NCBI RefSeq assembly: GCF_014189505.1
Contig: NZ_CP050301.1
Coordinates: forward strand, 3,293,501-3,357,500
Direction of reading: 5' to 3'
Length of the DNA stretch: 64,000 nt
Source: Phyllobacterium sp. 628
GTDB lineage: Bacteria; Pseudomonadota; Alphaproteobacteria; Rhizobiales; Rhizobiaceae
A program made the position numbers and the translations under genes. Below the pieces are notes generated by a model that worked only from the letters and a program-made list of their open reading frames with translations, was not told the DNA's origin and did not search any database. Within the stretch, counting starts at the first letter, position 1; each line of letters opens with the position of its first letter. This document shows, one piece after another, positions 3,463-39,995 of the stretch.

Positions 3463-3585
3463 TGCGTGGTTCGACAAGCTCACCATGAGGGAGATGGAGG
3501 ATTGCATTGAGCCATATTCTGCAATCTCCACGGATTAGCTTTGCAGCTACAATCTTCCTCATGGTGAGCCTGTCGAACCACGCAT
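3463..3585. repeat. Intergenic palindrome, family A, copy 1
   Basis: Two ~29-bp arms in inverted orientation (3463-3491 and 3556-3585), each containing TGGTTCGACA-G/A-GCTCACCATGAGG or its complement, flank a ~65-bp centre. The same arm occurs at 10217, 10324, 25258, 37284 and, split by an IS element, 37374/38541. The element fills the gap between the methyltransferase and the ASKHA gene. It could fold into a long hairpin in RNA or DNA. No coding capacity is evident. Confidence 0.85.
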
Positions 3586-17769: not shown

Positions 17770-20756
17770 CCAGTTCGCGGCTCCCCAAAGGCGGTCGGAT
17801 CGATCGCAGCAAGACTGTTCGCTTCACGTTTGACGGCAAAGCCTATAGCGGCCACCCGGGCGATACGCTTGCCTCTGCTCTGCTTGCCAGCGGTATCACG
17901 CTTTTCGGCCGTTCATTCAAATACCATCGCCCGCGCGGTGTGTTTGCGGCAGGTAGCGATGAACCCAATGCGCTTGTTACCGTTCTTTCCGGTGATGTTC
18001 GCGAGCCCAACGTCCGTGCGACAGAGCTGGAAATTCACGATGGCCTCGTGACGGAAAGCCAGAACCGCTTTCCATCGCTCGAGCATGATTTCATGGCCAT
18101 CAATCAGCTTGCAGGGCCGCTTTTTTCAGCGGGTTTCTACTACAAGACCTTTATGGGACCGGCGATTGGTCCGCTTCGCAGCACAAAGTTCTGGATGTTC
18201 TGCGAGAAATTCATTCGCCGGGCCGCCGGGCTTGGCAAGGCAGGCATTGCTGCAGATCCTGATCACTATGAGCGCGTGAATGCTTTTTGCGACGTACTCG
18301 TGGTTGGCACCGGGCCAGCTGGATTGATCGCCGCAGAAGCCGCTGCAGAAACCGGGGCCCGCGTTATCATCGCTGAAGAACGGCCGGTTGCGGGCGGCTC
18401 TCTGCTCGCATCAGCCGAAATCATTGATGGGCGCAATGCCGCCGTCTGGGCACGGGAAAAAGCTGCAGCACTTGCCGGCAGGCCCAATGTCCGGTTTCTC
18501 ACACGCACCTCTGTCTGGGGTTATTACGACGGCAATGTTCTGACTGCCATCGAACATCTTTCAGATTATAAGCCGAACCGCACCAAGGGACAGGCCCGTC
18601 AGCGGCATTGGGTCATCCGCACAGGCAAGACCATCCTTGCAACCGGTGCCTTCGAGCGGCCGATCGTATTTCCGGGGAATGATTGCCCCGGTGTCATGCT
18701 GGCAGATGCGGTACGGCGATATGCTGTCGAATATGGTGTGGCGCCGGGAAACAACGTCACGCTTTTCACCAACAATGACAGTGCATATGAAGCCGCACGC
18801 GCCATGGCCCAAGCCGGGGTTAATATTGCTGCCATTGTCGATGTGCGATTGGACGTTTCCGGTGCTTGCAGCGAGATTGCAACGGCAATCGGGGCCGAGC
18901 TCGTTCTTGGCCATGCAGTGACGGGCACCCATGCGGGCAAGACTCTGAGTTCGATCACCGTGCAGCATTTCAATGCCGTAACGGGTCATGTTTCCGGAAC
19001 ACCACGCGAGATCAAGACCGACTGTCTCGGTGTTTCCGGCGGCTGGTCTCCGGCTATTCACCTCGCCAGTCAGGCGGGTGGCAAGCCGGAATGGGACGAA
19101 GATCTGCAGGCGTTCCTTCCGCCGGAACCCAACCAGAACTGGGTTACTGCAGGCTCTTCAGCCGGTTACATGGATACAGTCAGTGTTTTCTCCGACGGAG
19201 CGACCAAAGGCTCGTCGTCAAAAGCCAAAGCAAAGCTGCCCAGCGTCGATGCGCCCATGTTCGACCCATCGCCTGCGCCGGTTTTCGAGATCGAACCAGC
19301 GGTTAAATCGCAAAAGGCCTTTGTTGATTTTCAGCACGATGTCACTGCGGATGATATCCGCCTCGCCTATCGTGAAGGGTTTCACTCGGTCGAGCATCTG
19401 AAGCGTTACACCACACTTGGCATGGCTACAGATCAGGGCAAGACCTCGAACATCCCCGGCCTGGCCATCATGGCCGATGTTCGTGGCATCACCATTCCGG
19501 AAGCGGGAACCACACGCTTCCGTCCGCCGTTCACCCCTGTTTCGTTCGGCGCCATTGCTGGCGAGCGCTACGGCGATTTGCGGCCGCACCGGCTGACGCC
19601 CATGCATGACTGGCATCTCGCCAACAGCGCCAAAACATATGAAGCAGGACTGTGGCACCGCCCGATGATCTATGGCAGCCACGGCGAAACAGTCGAGCAG
19701 GCCTATGTTCGCGAGGCGCGAGCCGTGCGCCAGAGTGTTGGCATCGTAGATGTCTCGACGCTCGGCAAAATCGACATTCAAGGGCCGGACGCTGCCGAGT
19801 TTCTTGATCGCGTCTACACAAACATGTTCTCCACGTTGCCTGTCGGCAAGGCGCGCTATGGCCTGATGTTGCGTGAGGACGGCATTGTCTTTGATGATGG
19901 CACCACATGGCGGCTCAGTGAAACACAGTTTCTGATGACAACCACCACGGCCAATGCCGGAAATGTCATGCAGCATATGGAGTTTTACCTCGATTGCGTC
20001 TGGCCTGACCTGCGTGTGCATCTGACATCCGTCACCGATGTCTGGGCAGGTACAGCCATTTCCGGTCCGAATGCTCGCGCCGTTCTGGAAGCTTGCGTTA
20101 CAGGGACCAAGGTGGACAATGCAACACTGCCTTTCATGGGTATTGTCTACGGATCAATCGGCGATATTCCTGTCATGATCTGCCGCCTCTCCTTCTCCGG
20201 TGAACTCGCCTATGAAGTCTATTGCGGTGCAGGGTTTGGCACGCAGGTATGGGAAGCATTGCTGGAGGCAGGTAAAACTTACGACATCATGCCGTATGGG
20301 CTGGAAGCGCTCGGAACGCTGCGCATCGAAAAGGGTCACGTTACCGGTGCCGAAATCGATGGCCGGACAACGGCGCACGATCTGCATCTCGACTGGATGT
20401 TGTCGAAGAAGAAACCCTATATCGGGTCTGGCATGAAAGACCGCGCCGGGCTGACTGACGAAAATCGATTGTCGCTCGTTGGCCTGATTTCGCTGGACAA
20501 CCAGTCGATCAACGGCGGCAGTCATATCGTCAGCGATGCGGCCCCCCGCGAACCTGCCGACAGTTTCGGTCACGTTACAGCAGCCTGTTATTCGCCTGCC
20601 CTTGGCAAGTACATCGCACTCGCCTTGGTTAAGCATGGCACGTCAATGATAGGCAATCGTGCCTTTGCGACTGATCTTTTGCGCGGCAAACACTGCCCTG
20701 TGGAAATTGTCAGTCACCATATGTTTGATCCTGAGGGGAGCCGGATGCATGGCTGA
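17766..20756 (+). CDS. soxA: Sarcosine oxidase alpha subunit
   Basis: A 996-residue subunit. It has an N-terminal ferredoxin-like domain without Fe-S cysteines (GDTLASALLASGITLFGRSF), an NAD-binding fold (DVLVVGTGPAGLIAAEAA near residue 178), a helical middle part, and a C-terminal GcvT/aminomethyltransferase domain (VGIVDVSTLGKIDIQG near 660; LEALGTLRIEKGH) that would bind tetrahydrofolate. In the complete enzyme the alpha subunit holds NAD and the folate site and the FMN lies at the interface with the beta subunit. Overlaps soxD by 4 bp and soxG by 8 bp, so the three genes are one translation-coupled unit. Confidence 0.92.
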   Translation: MTSSRLPKGGRIDRSKTVRFTFDGKAYSGHPGDTLASALLASGITLFGRSFKYHRPRGVFAAGSDEPNALVTVLSGDVREPNVRATELEIHDGLVTESQNRFPSLEHDFMAINQLAGPLFSAGFYYKTFMGPAIGPLRSTKFWMFCEKFIRRAAGLGKAGIAADPDHYERVNAFCDVLVVGTGPAGLIAAEAAAETGARVIIAEERPVAGGSLLASAEIIDGRNAAVWAREKAAALAGRPNVRFLTRTSVWGYYDGNVLTAIEHLSDYKPNRTKGQARQRHWVIRTGKTILATGAFERPIVFPGNDCPGVMLADAVRRYAVEYGVAPGNNVTLFTNNDSAYEAARAMAQAGVNIAAIVDVRLDVSGACSEIATAIGAELVLGHAVTGTHAGKTLSSITVQHFNAVTGHVSGTPREIKTDCLGVSGGWSPAIHLASQAGGKPEWDEDLQAFLPPEPNQNWVTAGSSAGYMDTVSVFSDGATKGSSSKAKAKLPSVDAPMFDPSPAPVFEIEPAVKSQKAFVDFQHDVTADDIRLAYREGFHSVEHLKRYTTLGMATDQGKTSNIPGLAIMADVRGITIPEAGTTRFRPPFTPVSFGAIAGERYGDLRPHRLTPMHDWHLANSAKTYEAGLWHRPMIYGSHGETVEQAYVREARAVRQSVGIVDVSTLGKIDIQGPDAAEFLDRVYTNMFSTLPVGKARYGLMLREDGIVFDDGTTWRLSETQFLMTTTTANAGNVMQHMEFYLDCVWPDLRVHLTSVTDVWAGTAISGPNARAVLEACVTGTKVDNATLPFMGIVYGSIGDIPVMICRLSFSGELAYEVYCGAGFGTQVWEALLEAGKTYDIMPYGLEALGTLRIEKGHVTGAEIDGRTTAHDLHLDWMLSKKKPYIGSGMKDRAGLTDENRLSLVGLISLDNQSINGGSHIVSDAAPREPADSFGHVTAACYSPALGKYIALALVKHGTSMIGNRAFATDLLRGKHCPVEIVSHHMFDPEGSRMHG

Positions 20757-36494: not shown

Positions 36495-36798
36495 TGCGAC
36501 CTCCATAAACGATTGGGTTGCAGAGTGCAGTTGCCTCGAGAGGTCAACCGATACTCAATGATGACCGGTTGAAAAAATTTGTCAACAATCACTACCTGTT
36601 TAATCGTGTATTGGTTTTAACGCTTTCGAAACTTCTTCGGAGCTTAATTCTTAATGAATTATTATTTTTCAGAGCCTTAACGGCCATTTTTAAGACATTC
36701 GCCCGCCTTCAAAAAACTCAATTTTTTAACATTTTTGTACTAGAAAATGTCACGCGAGGGACTATGACTGCATCACATACGGTAGTCAGGCAAAGAAA
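36495..36798. promoter_or_regulatory. Divergent AT-rich promoter region with inverted repeat
   Basis: A 304-bp, markedly AT-rich gap between the small gene (minus) and the Rrf2 gene (plus). It contains the perfect inverted repeat TAATTC-TTAAT-GAATTA (36645-36661), which is a candidate binding site for the Rrf2 protein. No credible ORF is seen. Confidence 0.4.
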
Positions 36799-37248
36799 AT
36801 GATATCGCAAAAAGCCAAATATGCTCTCAGGGCGCTGGTCGTTCTGGCACGGGCTGACGCCGAAAAAGCTCTGTTCATTTCGGACATCGCGGAAGAGCAG
36901 AACATTCCAAAGAAGTTTCTTGAGCAAATTCTGCTCGACCTGAAACATCAGGGCATCGTGATGAGCCGCCGCGGTAAGATGGGCGGCTATTTGCTGCTCA
37001 AACCGGCGGAGGATATTACCTTTGGCGAAGTCCTGCGCCTGATCGACGGGCCGATTGCGCCACTGCCTTGCCTGAGCAAGATTGCTTATCGCCGTTGCGA
37101 GGATTGCGAAAGCGAAGACAATTGCGAAATCCGCCATGTTTTCAGCGAAGTCGCCAATGTGACGCGCGGCGTGCTGGACAAGACAACTATTGCCGATTGC
37201 CTCGCCTATGGCGGCAATGGCAAATTGCCTGCGGTGCTGGACAGCTGA
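36799..37248 (+). CDS. Rrf2-family transcriptional regulator
   Basis: A 149-residue Rrf2 protein: N-terminal winged HTH (SQKAKYALRALVVLARA; FISDIAEEQNIPKKFLEQIL; MSRRGKMGGYLLLKPAEDI) and a cysteine cluster in the C-terminal part (Cys at PLPCLSK, RRCEDCESEDNC). Some Rrf2 proteins (IscR, NsrR, RirA) bind Fe-S clusters through three such cysteines, others (CymR) sense cysteine metabolism. Being divergent from the sulfate-transport region suggests control of sulfur uptake; this is an inference. Confidence 0.85.
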   Translation: MISQKAKYALRALVVLARADAEKALFISDIAEEQNIPKKFLEQILLDLKHQGIVMSRRGKMGGYLLLKPAEDITFGEVLRLIDGPIAPLPCLSKIAYRRCEDCESEDNCEIRHVFSEVANVTRGVLDKTTIADCLAYGGNGKLPAVLDS

Positions 37249-37396
37249 TTTTTCAAACGGGATTGGTGCCGGATTTGAGTGGCGCGTGGTTCGACAAGCT
37301 CACCATGAGGGAGAGTGCGGCTGAAAGGTTAACCGGAAAGATTGCAGGATATGGCTCCTTGCAATCTTCACTTTCCCTCATGGTGAGCAACTGTGT

Positions 37397-38350
37397 TTAT
37401 GTTTGAATGTTTGGTTGCCAATCTGTTTGGTTTTTGATCATTGCGTTGAGGGTGACGATGAGCTTTCGCATGAGTGCGACAATGGCCAGTTTGAAGGGCT
37501 TTCCGTTGGCTCTGAGCCTTTGATAGAAGGCGGCGAGCGGGTGTTTTGCGCAACGTATGACGCTTAAGGATGCCATATAGAGGACGCGGCGGATGCCTGC
37601 CCGTCCGCCCTGGCACTTTCCGCTGCGGCTGCTGTTTCCCGATTGGCGCGGATGCGGAGCAACGCCGGTCAGGCTGGCCGCCTGACGGCTGGATAGCGTG
37701 CCAAGCTCGGGCATGGAGCCGATGAGTTCGGCGGTCAGGACGGGACCGGCTCCCGGCATCGAGGCGATGCGCCTTGCCGTTTGTGCCTGTGCGGGATTGC
37801 GGGCTATGGCGCTGCGTATATGTGCTTCCAGTGTCTTGATGGCTTTGATGTGCTGGTCCATCAACACGCCAATGATGCTGGCAGCATCCGCATCGCCCAT
37901 GCGCGCCTCGTGGCTTTTCAGCTCACTCAGTCCGGCAATCAACCGGCGGCGCAATGTCGTCAACTCTTTGATGGCGCTCATGGTTGTGGACCGGATCGCC
38001 GGTTTGCGGGTGGCAACGGCAACCTGCAGTGCCCGGGCAATGGCGATCGCATCCAGCCGGTCCGTCTTGGCCCGCCGGCCCGTCAGGCGGCTATGGGAGC
38101 GCACATCGGAAGGATGCAGGCAATAGGCTGCCATGCCAGCTTCACCCAGCACAATCAGCAGGCAATCCTCATAACCGCCTGTGGCTTCACAGCCAAAGGC
38201 AACCCCTTCCAGCACACCGATGCGCTGCAGCAAAAGACCAACGCCTGCGCGGCTGTTGGGCACCCGCAGTTCCAGCCCATCAGGCAAACAATGCAGATCG
38301 AGGTAAGCCTTGCTCACATCGATGCCGACAAAACGCGTAAACTGTGTCAT
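37397..38350 (-). CDS. IS110-family RNA-guided transposase (recombinase)
   Basis: A 317-residue recombinase. The RuvC-like DEDD residues are Asp11 (VGIDVSK), Glu55 (GCEATGGYE), Asp97 and Asp100 (RAKTDRLDA). The C-terminal Tnp domain has MPGAGPVLTAELIG and a serine at 237 in HPRQSGNSS, the likely nucleophile. All motifs are intact and length is normal, so the enzyme may be active. ATG 38350 is preferred over the 20-residue longer form because family similarity starts at TQFTRFVGID; the longer form would start inside the donor-guide segment of the RNA. Confidence 0.92.
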   Translation of the reverse strand: MTQFTRFVGIDVSKAYLDLHCLPDGLELRVPNSRAGVGLLLQRIGVLEGVAFGCEATGGYEDCLLIVLGEAGMAAYCLHPSDVRSHSRLTGRRAKTDRLDAIAIARALQVAVATRKPAIRSTTMSAIKELTTLRRRLIAGLSELKSHEARMGDADAASIIGVLMDQHIKAIKTLEAHIRSAIARNPAQAQTARRIASMPGAGPVLTAELIGSMPELGTLSSRQAASLTGVAPHPRQSGNSSRSGKCQGGRAGIRRVLYMASLSVIRCAKHPLAAFYQRLRANGKPFKLAIVALMRKLIVTLNAMIKNQTDWQPNIQT

Positions 38351-38354
38351 GATG

Positions 38355-38510
38355 AAAACCCCTGGCTTGTCATGCGGGGTCGATGCCCCTGGCAACTGTT
38401 CGGGTGTCATCGAAGGACCGGGCCTTGCTCACCATCGGACTGGCAAACGTCCGGCTGTCGAAACGGCCTCAGGTCCATCGGTCCACGTGCCGTCAATGGG
38501 CACGTGGACC
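38355..38510 (-). ncRNA. Bridge RNA of the IS110 element
   Basis: Read on the minus strand in order: a perfect 12-bp stem-loop (38510-38499 with 38491-38480); guide TTCGACA (38462-38456); a CGGAC/GTCCG hairpin; guide ATGGTGAGC (38435-38427); guide ACAGTTG (38399-38393); a GGGG/CCCC hairpin; guide GACAAGC (38371-38365). The first guide equals the top strand left of the target core, the second is complementary to the right side (GCTCACCAT). The third equals the element's right end (ACAGTTG), the fourth is complementary to the left end (GCTTGTC). This matches the 5' stem, target-binding loop and donor-binding loop of known bridge RNAs. Transcription ends are inferred from the TATACT box at 38521-38516. 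Confidence 0.85.
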
Positions 38511-38515
38511 AAGCC

Positions 38516-38521
38516 AGTATA
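38516..38521 (-). promoter_or_regulatory. -10 box of the bridge RNA/transposase
   Basis: TATACT on the minus strand, placing the transcription start near 38510, the first base of the RNA's 5' stem. In the integrated form no good -35 is present. In the excised circle the right end supplies TTG next to CTT, giving TTGCTT 16 bp upstream, so the promoter may be assembled only on circularisation. Confidence 0.5.
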
Positions 38522-38597
38522 CACACTTCAAACAGACAAGCTTGTCGAACCACGCAACAAATACGAGTACAGTCCATCAATCTACGTCGAGGAACTC

Positions 38598-39196
38598 ATG
38601 ACCGCCAATGACCCTGAAACGCTGGCATTCTACGCCGATGAGGCAGTCCGTTATGCCAATCAGTCGCAAGCACGCTCCTTTGACCATCTCGACACCTATC
38701 TGCAACTCTTGCCCCAAACGCAGCCATCCTTGAGCTTGGCTGCGGTGGCGGGGATGACACCGCACATATGCTGAAAAATGGCTTCCTTGTCACACCGACC
38801 GACGGATCGCCGGAAATTGCAGCTGAAGCACAAAAACGCCTCGGCATTCCTGTCAGCGTTCTGCAGTTTCAGGATATTGCCGCTGAAAGCGCATATGACG
38901 GAGTTTGGGCAAGCGCCTGTCTCTTGCATGTGCCGCGCAGCGCCCTGCCCGATATTATCAACCATATTCACCGCGCCCTGAAACCCGGCGGCAAATTCTT
39001 TGCCAGCTTCAAGGCAGGCGCCGCCGAAGGCCGGGACAAATTCGGCCGCTACTTCAATTATCCTTCGCCGGATTGGCTGCGTGAGGCCTATCAGGACCAC
39101 CGCTGGCAGGACATTGCCATCACGTCCTTGATGGGCAGCGGCTATGACAATGAGCCGACCGAGTGGCTCCATGCTGTTGCAACCAAACCCAAGTAA
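38598..39196 (+). pseudogene. Class I SAM-dependent methyltransferase, frameshifted
   Basis: About 199 residues if repaired. The first part (MTANDPETLAFYADEAVRYA, ...FDHLDTYLQLLP) and the second (HMLKNGFLVTPTDGSPEIAA, DGVWASACLLHVPRSALPDI, ALKPGGKFFASFKAG) are in different frames. Adding one C to the CCCC run at 38712-38715 rejoins them and restores the SAM-binding loop AILELGCGGGDDTA. GAGG lies just before the ATG. It starts 57 bp after the IS element and converges on thiG. Either a sequencing error or a fresh inactivation. Confidence 0.8.
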
Positions 39197-39221
39197 CGAG
39201 GCGGCAGGGTTCAGTCTCCCC

Positions 39222-39995
39222 TCACGTAAAAACAGCTTTCCCGATGACCGGCGTCGATGGCACCGCAACATCGCGTGGCTCCAGCATACCCGCGTGATAG
39301 GCAATGTTTCCAGCTTTGGCGGCCATCGCGAAAGCAGCAGCCATTGCAACCGGATCTCCGGCTTTGGCCACCGCCGTATTGAGCAAGATTGCATCAAAGC
39401 CCAATTCCATCACCGTTGCAGCGTGTGACGGTCTACCCAATCCCGCATCAATGACCATTGGAACATCCGGGAAATGCCCCCGCAATGCGCGCAAGGCATG
39501 AAGATTGAGCGGCCCCAGGGCCGAACCAATAGGTGCGCACCATGGCATCAGGACTTCGCATCCAGCCTCAAGCAATCGCTCCGCCACAATCAAATCGTCT
39601 GTCGTGTAGGGGAAAACCTTGAACCCATCTTCCGACAAAATTCGCGCTGCTTCCACCAGCGCGAAGACGTCGGGTTGCAAGGTGTCATGATTGCCGATGA
39701 CTTCGAGTTTGATCCAGTCCGTTTTGAAAATGTCCCGGGCCATTTGTGCCGTCAGCACCGCTTCCTTGACGGTATGACAACCTGCAGTGTTCGGCAGAAC
39801 GTGCACTCCGAGCGACTGGATGAGTGACCAGAACTTGTCCCCCGATTTACCGCCCGCCATCTCACGGCGCAGCGAAACCGTAACAACCTTGGTTTCCGAA
39901 GCCGTCACAGCCTCCATCAGGATCGCTGGCGAAGGATATTGCGCGGTTCCGAGCAACAATCGCGATGATAATTCCTTGCCGTATACACTCAGCAT
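39222..39995 (-). CDS. thiG: Thiazole synthase
   Basis: A 257-residue TIM-barrel enzyme that builds the thiazole phosphate of thiamine from deoxyxylulose-5-phosphate, dehydroglycine and ThiS thiocarboxylate. [18 protein letters not shown], the active-site lysine region [46 protein letters not shown] and [19 protein letters not shown] are all family signatures. It follows thiS by 3 bp. thiE, which often comes next, is absent. Confidence 0.95.

Follow-up and report, generated by a model that had tools for sequence, protein, structure and literature searches.

An IS110-group element and its transposase

The window, by which we mean the whole 64,000-nucleotide stretch analysed here, carries on its minus strand an insertion sequence whose only long noncoding segment, the leader, precedes a transposase gene (Table 1). 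The transposase scores 178.2 bits against NCBIfam NF033542, 'IS110 family RNA-guided transposase' (cut-off 140), and both Pfam families, DEDD_Tnp_IS110 and Transposase_20, match the gene. Residues D11, E55, D97, D100 and S237 are invariant in the 8 sequences of the transposase alignment and align with D11, E60, D102, D105 and S241, the catalytic residues of IS621 (PMC11208158); a profile of the 8 relatives matches the structurally solved transposases of IS621 and ISCro4 over positions 3-305 of 307 (E 5e-62 and 1.8e-62, respectively). Judged from these alignments, the protein belongs to the IS110 group, with a predicted RuvC-like DEDD domain and a Tnp_20 domain bearing the catalytic serine, and its predicted catalytic residues are conserved relative to IS621 and ISCro4.

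Elements of the IS110 group have a long noncoding left end and a short right end, an arrangement that differs in IS1111 (PMC11208160). Here, 190 nt precede the transposase start codon and 9 nt follow the stop, and the element therefore has the IS110-group layout; membership in the IS1111 group, in which the RNA lies in a long right end, was rejected because the right noncoding end is only 9 nt. Rejoining the flanks restores one intact repeat arm, with only GCT common to the site and the element ends, and the element is thus without target duplication beyond the shared core. Four copies are present in the host genome, 100% identical over the query and bounded by four different outer flanks. Elsewhere the element is rare: its protein was found at E <= 1e-50 in 3/394 genomes of the family and its DNA in 2/20 genomes of the genus, own genome included in both counts. 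A plasmid collection held no full-length match to the element DNA, only three records each covering 5-8% of the query.

Table 1. Coordinates of the insertion sequence, its predicted RNA and its target within the window
Feature	Position	Strand	Remarks and basis
IS110-group insertion sequence, whole	37388-38540	minus	1,153 bp, one CT core copy counted at the left end; four identical copies
Element right end, left donor half ACAGTTG	37388-37394	minus	letters and copy comparison
Element left end CTTGTC, core plus right donor half	38535-38540	minus	letters and copy comparison
Left target half TTCGACAAG, in the broken repeat arm	38541-38549	minus	letters and copy comparison
Right target half with second CT core, CTCACCAT	37380-37387	minus	letters and copy comparison
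Intact partner arm of the inverted repeat holding the element	37290-37311	plus	copy comparison and letters
Transposase (recombinase), DEDD and Tnp_20	37397-38350	minus	317 aa; Pfam PF01548 and PF02371; NCBIfam NF033542
Predicted bridge RNA	38351-38512	minus	about 162 nt, ends inferred: hairpin start and donor stem end from letters; model R1 match 38357-38478, 55.8 bits
5' stem-loop	38478-38512	minus	14 bp; fold
Target-binding loop module	38415-38476	minus	outer stem 5+4 bp, apical 5-bp hairpin 38436-38453; consensus fold, window helices hand-drawn
Left target guide UUCGACA	38456-38462	minus	followed by GC (38455-38454), pairing after one skipped target base; letters
Right target guide AUGGUGAGC (DNA ATGGTGAGC)	38427-38435	minus	letters
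Donor-binding loop module	38351-38411	minus	outer stem 5+3 bp, apical 4-bp hairpin 38376-38389, ends right before the start codon; consensus fold, window helices hand-drawn
Left donor guide ACAGUUGC	38392-38399	minus	8 nt; letters
Right donor guide GACAAGC	38365-38371	minus	last C at the handshake position, complementary to the G that precedes the core in the target; letters
-10-like TATACT	38516-38521	minus	weak; -35-like hexamer TTGCTT 16 bp upstream only in the joined circle (guess)

Insertion into a host palindromic repeat

The preliminary description had suggested examining other copies of the element, and this comparison places 4/4 copies at one and the same base, the guided one, of an inverted repeat arm, GTGGTTCGACAAG^CTCACCATGAGGG (TTCGACAAG^CTCACCATGAGGG), in four places with different outer flanks. 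The repeat is abundant. The genome has 98 forward and 102 reverse occurrences of the pattern TTCG-N(3-9)-CTCACCATGAGGG (200 in total), and a control pattern read backwards has 0. Arms of the TTCGACNNGCTCACCATGAGGG form are present in 18/19 genomes of the genus searched, own included, and the same repeat, with both arms, is found in plasmids of two Phyllobacterium strains. Further arms lie within the window at 3470, 10224/10326, 25266 and 37290 and, among the matches listed, arms commonly form inverted pairs some 60-110 bp apart. Beyond 1.83 Mb the matches listed include '+' arms only; a strand switch was rejected, partner arms being present in 3/4 fetched examples, and the pattern is most likely a listing artefact. 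A text search of the literature with three stretches of the repeat returned, among the matches listed, no title on this repeat and none with the 15-base TTCGACAAGCTCACC.

Four identical copies within a repeat that offers 200 occurrences of the arm pattern could also have been spread by homologous recombination between repeats, and would then represent one insertion and carry little weight for targeting. We regard this as very improbable: the four outer flanks differ, the repeat interior of one copy (L003) is unlike that of the other three, and a related element in another genome occupies the same position of its own arm.

A predicted bridge RNA in the leader

The left flank of the element reads TTCGACAAG|CTTGTC and the right flank ACAGTTG|CTCACCAT, bearing out the target, donor and CT core first proposed for it, and the rejoined element ends read ACAGTTG-CT-TGTC. 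The four guide segments that had been picked out by eye are likewise present on the minus strand at the positions given for them (TTCGACA at 38462-38456, ATGGTGAGC at 38435-38427, ACAGTTG at 38399-38393 and GACAAGC at 38371-38365), with the left and right target guides on the two sides of one internal loop in the target module. Some details require revision. The 5' stem-loop exists but has 14 bp (38512-38478) rather than 12; the letters of the left donor guide are correct, although it extends to 38392 as ACAGTTGC and so comprises 8 nt, including the first core base, instead of 7; and the four guides are free of mismatches for the segments chosen, although the left target guide reaches the core only by a one-base skip. 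By analogy, the last C of the right target guide probably occupies the position of the IS621 handshake base. In each of the two left guides, a C stands opposite T, the second core base.

The longest matches in the real leader are 7 (left target), 9 (right target), 8 (left donor) and 7 (right donor). Single matches of the same length arose in 95, 5, 13 and 44, respectively, of 2000 dinucleotide shuffles of the 190-nt leader; all four lengths were jointly reached in 0, and the summed length also in 0.

Comparative folding recovers the same architecture. RNAalifold, applied to a hand-chosen set of 36 leaders (35 of the 48 described below plus L042, with 13 left out), returned both internal-loop modules. 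In the consensus structure, which was derived from the alignment on which it was scored and is biased in its favour to that extent, 94.4% of cells are paired versus 81.2% with shuffled partners, and two-sided changes occur in 15/21 pairs versus 9.2 in shuffles; 0/500 shuffles reach any of the five pairing measures, and sliding the partners by 1 to 3 columns lowers pairing to 33-50%. A consensus structure with two internal loops, which had been named as a point to check, thus emerges from 36 leaders with compensatory changes above shuffled levels. Of the six helices in the consensus, one (2 bp) falls inside the donor guides, and the 5' stem-loop seen in the window is absent from the consensus.

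A covariance model, R1, built from 29 of the 48 leaders and excluding the window and its nearest relative, matches the window leader (Table 1) and L042, the latter at 64 bits. In the host genome, among the 150 of 1477 first-look candidates that were scored, it matches only the leaders of the four copies, at 55.8 bits each. The two-loop fold is conserved among the leaders. A weak R1 match elsewhere in the window (18944-18998, E 0.92) is taken as chance. An Rfam scan of 36500-39500 gave no bridge RNA match; its 4 matches are all far under the gathering scores, and the highest-scoring, MIR535, which covers the repeat palindrome, is likewise taken as chance. The single-sequence minimum free energy fold of the window leader (-74.9 kcal/mol) does not open both loops, and the hand-drawn two-loop fold reaches -67.1 kcal/mol, so presentation of the guides by the free RNA may depend on protein or DNA. 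We note that the donor-loop stem (38348-38362) ends directly before the ATG and contains AGGGG, a possible ribosome site; bridge RNA folding and transposase translation may therefore be mutually exclusive.

Agreement of guides and sites among relatives

A single-protein search of genome contigs found no relative, and a three-protein alignment was therefore used, from which the best 80 of 307 relatives were taken; with 13 further loci, 93 were examined. Donor patterns are present at both ends in 71/93 (22 are without them at one or both ends), and 9 more have no left-end candidate, leaving 62. Filters were passed by 61 of these, 48 remained after redundancy removal and 47 entered the permutation test, L064 being dropped because its right flank consists of N. 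The ends of each element were placed from its donor patterns and independently of the target, and where several left-end candidates existed the best-scoring was used, for own and foreign leaders alike. The searched leader was restricted in this test; an unrestricted leader overlaps the flank in L064, L072, L094, L101, L105 and L116, and a first version (0/100000 permutations) was discarded for this overlap.

Scored as the longest exact left plus right target match, the 47 elements agree with their own sites over a mean of 12.64 letters, versus 8.80 for the loops of other elements, and 0/20000 permutations reach the observed sum. Whether sites follow guides among relatives, a question already posed in the preliminary description, is thereby answered for these 47 elements: own pairs beat swapped ones. 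The own leader is best or tied in 29/47 and strictly best in 22/47, the window element being strictly best at its own site. The own match is poor in some cases, with foreign leaders equalling it in 13/46 comparisons (L067, L072), 12 (L047), 11 (L013) and 7 (L035). The first redundancy filter matched leaders one position at a time and allowed no gaps, and the test was therefore repeated with a gapped filter. Identity limits of 85, 75 and 70% leave 46, 36 and 33 elements, own means of 12.65, 12.64 and 12.64 against 8.78, 8.67 and 8.65, and 0/20000 permutations each. Guides and sites thus change together among relatives.

The handshake base offers a further comparison. In IS621 this base lies next to the right donor guide and pairs with target position 7 after strand exchange (PMC11208158). 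Among 40/48 elements (8 without exactly one left-end candidate in range were omitted), 38/40 have, directly after CAAG in the right donor guide, a base that complements target position 7; the permutation mean is 27.8 and 0/20000 permutations reach 38. Few of the cases behind this count vary: 32/40 have one and the same C-G pair, and of the remaining 8 elements 6 are complementary. The position next to the handshake base shows no agreement (8/40 elements). The window element itself has C facing G. Two relatives, L035 (whose flanks are common to L048) and L047, from Martelella and Methylocystis records, lie in the palindrome sites CTCGGG^CTTGACCCGAG and GGCCGGG^CTTGACCCGGCC, which implies that palindrome addressing recurs in this branch.

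The palindrome might instead be recognised by the transposase protein itself, the leader being only a structured mRNA leader and the guide matches either chance or remains of captured target DNA. Association with REPs (repetitive extragenic palindromes) is indeed reported for the IS3, IS4, IS256 and IS5 families (PMC1525189), which are not known to use bridge RNA, and a leader that abuts the start codon would cover the possible ribosome site. Set against the joint occurrence of four guide matches in 0/2000 shuffles, the parallel change of guide and site in relatives and the conserved two-loop fold, recognition by protein seems extremely improbable to us. Guidance by RNA, the IS621-type scheme first proposed for this rhizobial element, has gained support from the copies, the consensus structure and the guide-site agreement.

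A left target guide one base short

The left target guide, as first picked out, ends two bases before the core and does not run unbroken into it: where the target has TTCGACA-AG-CT, the RNA has UUCGACA-GC-C, so that pairing continues only if one target base is skipped. A contiguous, gap-free site, TTCGACAGCTCACC, has 0 occurrences in the host genome. The nearest relative comes from one genome of the same genus (G017; 63% in the protein alignment, 61% over residues 1-254 by tblastn). Its coding locus (L006/L046:1501-2435) is interrupted by a frame break near residue 240, and its leader contains an NN assembly gap; the guides were therefore read from L042 and L044, where the left guide is TTCGACGGG-C. 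The broken arm beside L044 is TTCGACGGGG-CT, one base longer than the L044 guide; that beside L042 is TTCGACAGG-CT, which fits the guide gap-free with one mismatch; and that beside L006, whose leader falls in the assembly gap, is again TTCGACGGGG-CT.

Both guide-bearing loci are incomplete. L044:1485-1634 (G017 contig 45) is a truncated relative that retains the left end up to the right target guide ATGGTGAGC, where it is joined to a repeat arm with the same letters; the junction resembles the product of a deletion running from the guide-coding DNA to a target arm in the genome, with an NN gap inside. L042:1460-1708 (G017 contig 19) is a relic of ~250 bp in which the bridge RNA region lies between two inverted left-end copies, each beside an arm TTCGACAGG; it is MITE-like, leaving no room for a transposase gene between the left-end copies.

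With a simple gapped score, the window guide rates its own arm at 6.5, TTCGACAGG at 6.5 and TTCGACGGGG at 3.5, and fails to distinguish the AGG arm from its own; a hypothetical arm lacking one A would score 8.0. The relative's guide rates the window arm at 5.0, TTCGACAGG at 7.0 and TTCGACGGGG at 7.5. These scores indicate that guide and arm differ in step between the window element and its relative. A guide one base short is found in the window element and the relic L044, which have differing guides and were each read with their own leader; the gap-free fit with one mismatch is that of L042. We tentatively suggest, at somewhat less than even confidence, that in this branch the left target guide falls one base short of the DNA to be read, with an unpaired target base next to the core. 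The duplex may bulge there or simply end early. The left donor guide of IS621 likewise ends at the first core base (PMC11208158), and the word 'bulge' is absent from the main text of both IS621 papers (PMC11208160, PMC11208158).

The short guide also invites a different reading, that the element is a relic without activity and that its guide, compared with the site, has decayed by one base. The lack of a contiguous site in the genome fits this, as does the broken or truncated state of the three places seen in G017. The four identical copies nevertheless have open frames free of stops, which speaks for recent movement, and we consider an inactive relic unlikely.

A model for guided insertion

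Taken together, we consider it highly probable that the element is a bridge RNA-guided insertion sequence of the IS110 group, whose target guides would address a palindromic intergenic repeat of the host. On the pattern of IS621, and from its own anatomy, the element would excise as a circle whose joined ends would place a promoter ahead of the leader, allowing the leader to be transcribed. The combination TTGCTT-16-TATACT is found at the junction only; its 8/12 consensus letters merely equal the best other sites nearby in both forms, and a junction promoter is therefore a guess. The leader RNA would fold into two loops and assemble with the recombinase, the target loop would pair with both strands of an arm TTCGACAAG-CT-CACCAT and the donor loop with the circle junction ACAGTTG-CT-TGTC, and the DEDD/serine recombinase would exchange strands at CT.

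If guided insertion is the correct reading, new insertions in the species are expected in TTCGACNNG-CTCACCAT arms. Here a naturally readable, predicted bridge RNA is accompanied by 200 natural target arms in a single genome, and a relative carries a different guide and sits in other arm variants; the two together make a good test bed for guide tolerance, notably of the skipped base beside the core.

Comparison with known systems

The bridge RNA principle itself is already established, and the element adds a new example. For IS621, bridge RNAs were described in 2024, and 85.7% of IS110-group elements were predicted to have one (PMC11208160), with seekRNAs described in parallel (PMC11187229); our literature search found no paper joining Phyllobacterium and IS110. 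As in IS621, the predicted RNA lies in the left end before the gene and comprises a 5' stem-loop, a target loop and a donor loop, the core is CT, and both strands of target and donor would be read (PMC11208160, PMC11208158). Shared as well are an 8-nt left donor guide ending at the first core base and a handshake base (PMC11208158), and the DEDD and serine catalytic residues together with a REP target (PMC11208160, PMC11208158, PMC1525189). The window element differs from IS621 in a clearly diverged transposase (phmmer E 1.2e-17), in its target repeat, in a right target guide that reaches 9 nt with the handshake base, and in a left target guide one base shorter than the target.

In ISEc21, an IS110 element, and in the IS1111-type seekRNA elements, an RNA from a noncoding region likewise directs the site (PMC11187229). 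ISEc21 resembles the window element in carrying the RNA upstream, and it forms a junction promoter; it differs in targeting a conserved region within IS3-family elements, whereas the IS1111 types differ in that their RNA is usually downstream (PMC11187229). The only IS name among the 25 plasmid records listed was ISMno7 of Methylobacterium nodulans, an IS110-like element with a 39% identical transposase.

Targeting of REPs by IS110 elements was reported in 2006, the rhizobial ISRm19 included (PMC1525189). ISPpu9, ISPpu10 and ISPa11, of the IS110 family, have all counted copies in host REPs (7/7, 7/7 and 6/6), with insertion at a fixed base of the REP for ISPpu9 and ISPpu10, and differ from the window element in their hosts and in the REPs concerned (PMC1525189); tnp of ISPpu9 is reported to be controlled by two small RNAs (PMC8450116). 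By its description, ISRm19 of Sinorhizobium meliloti is comparable in being a rhizobial IS110-family element with 4/4 copies inside REPs (PMC1525189).
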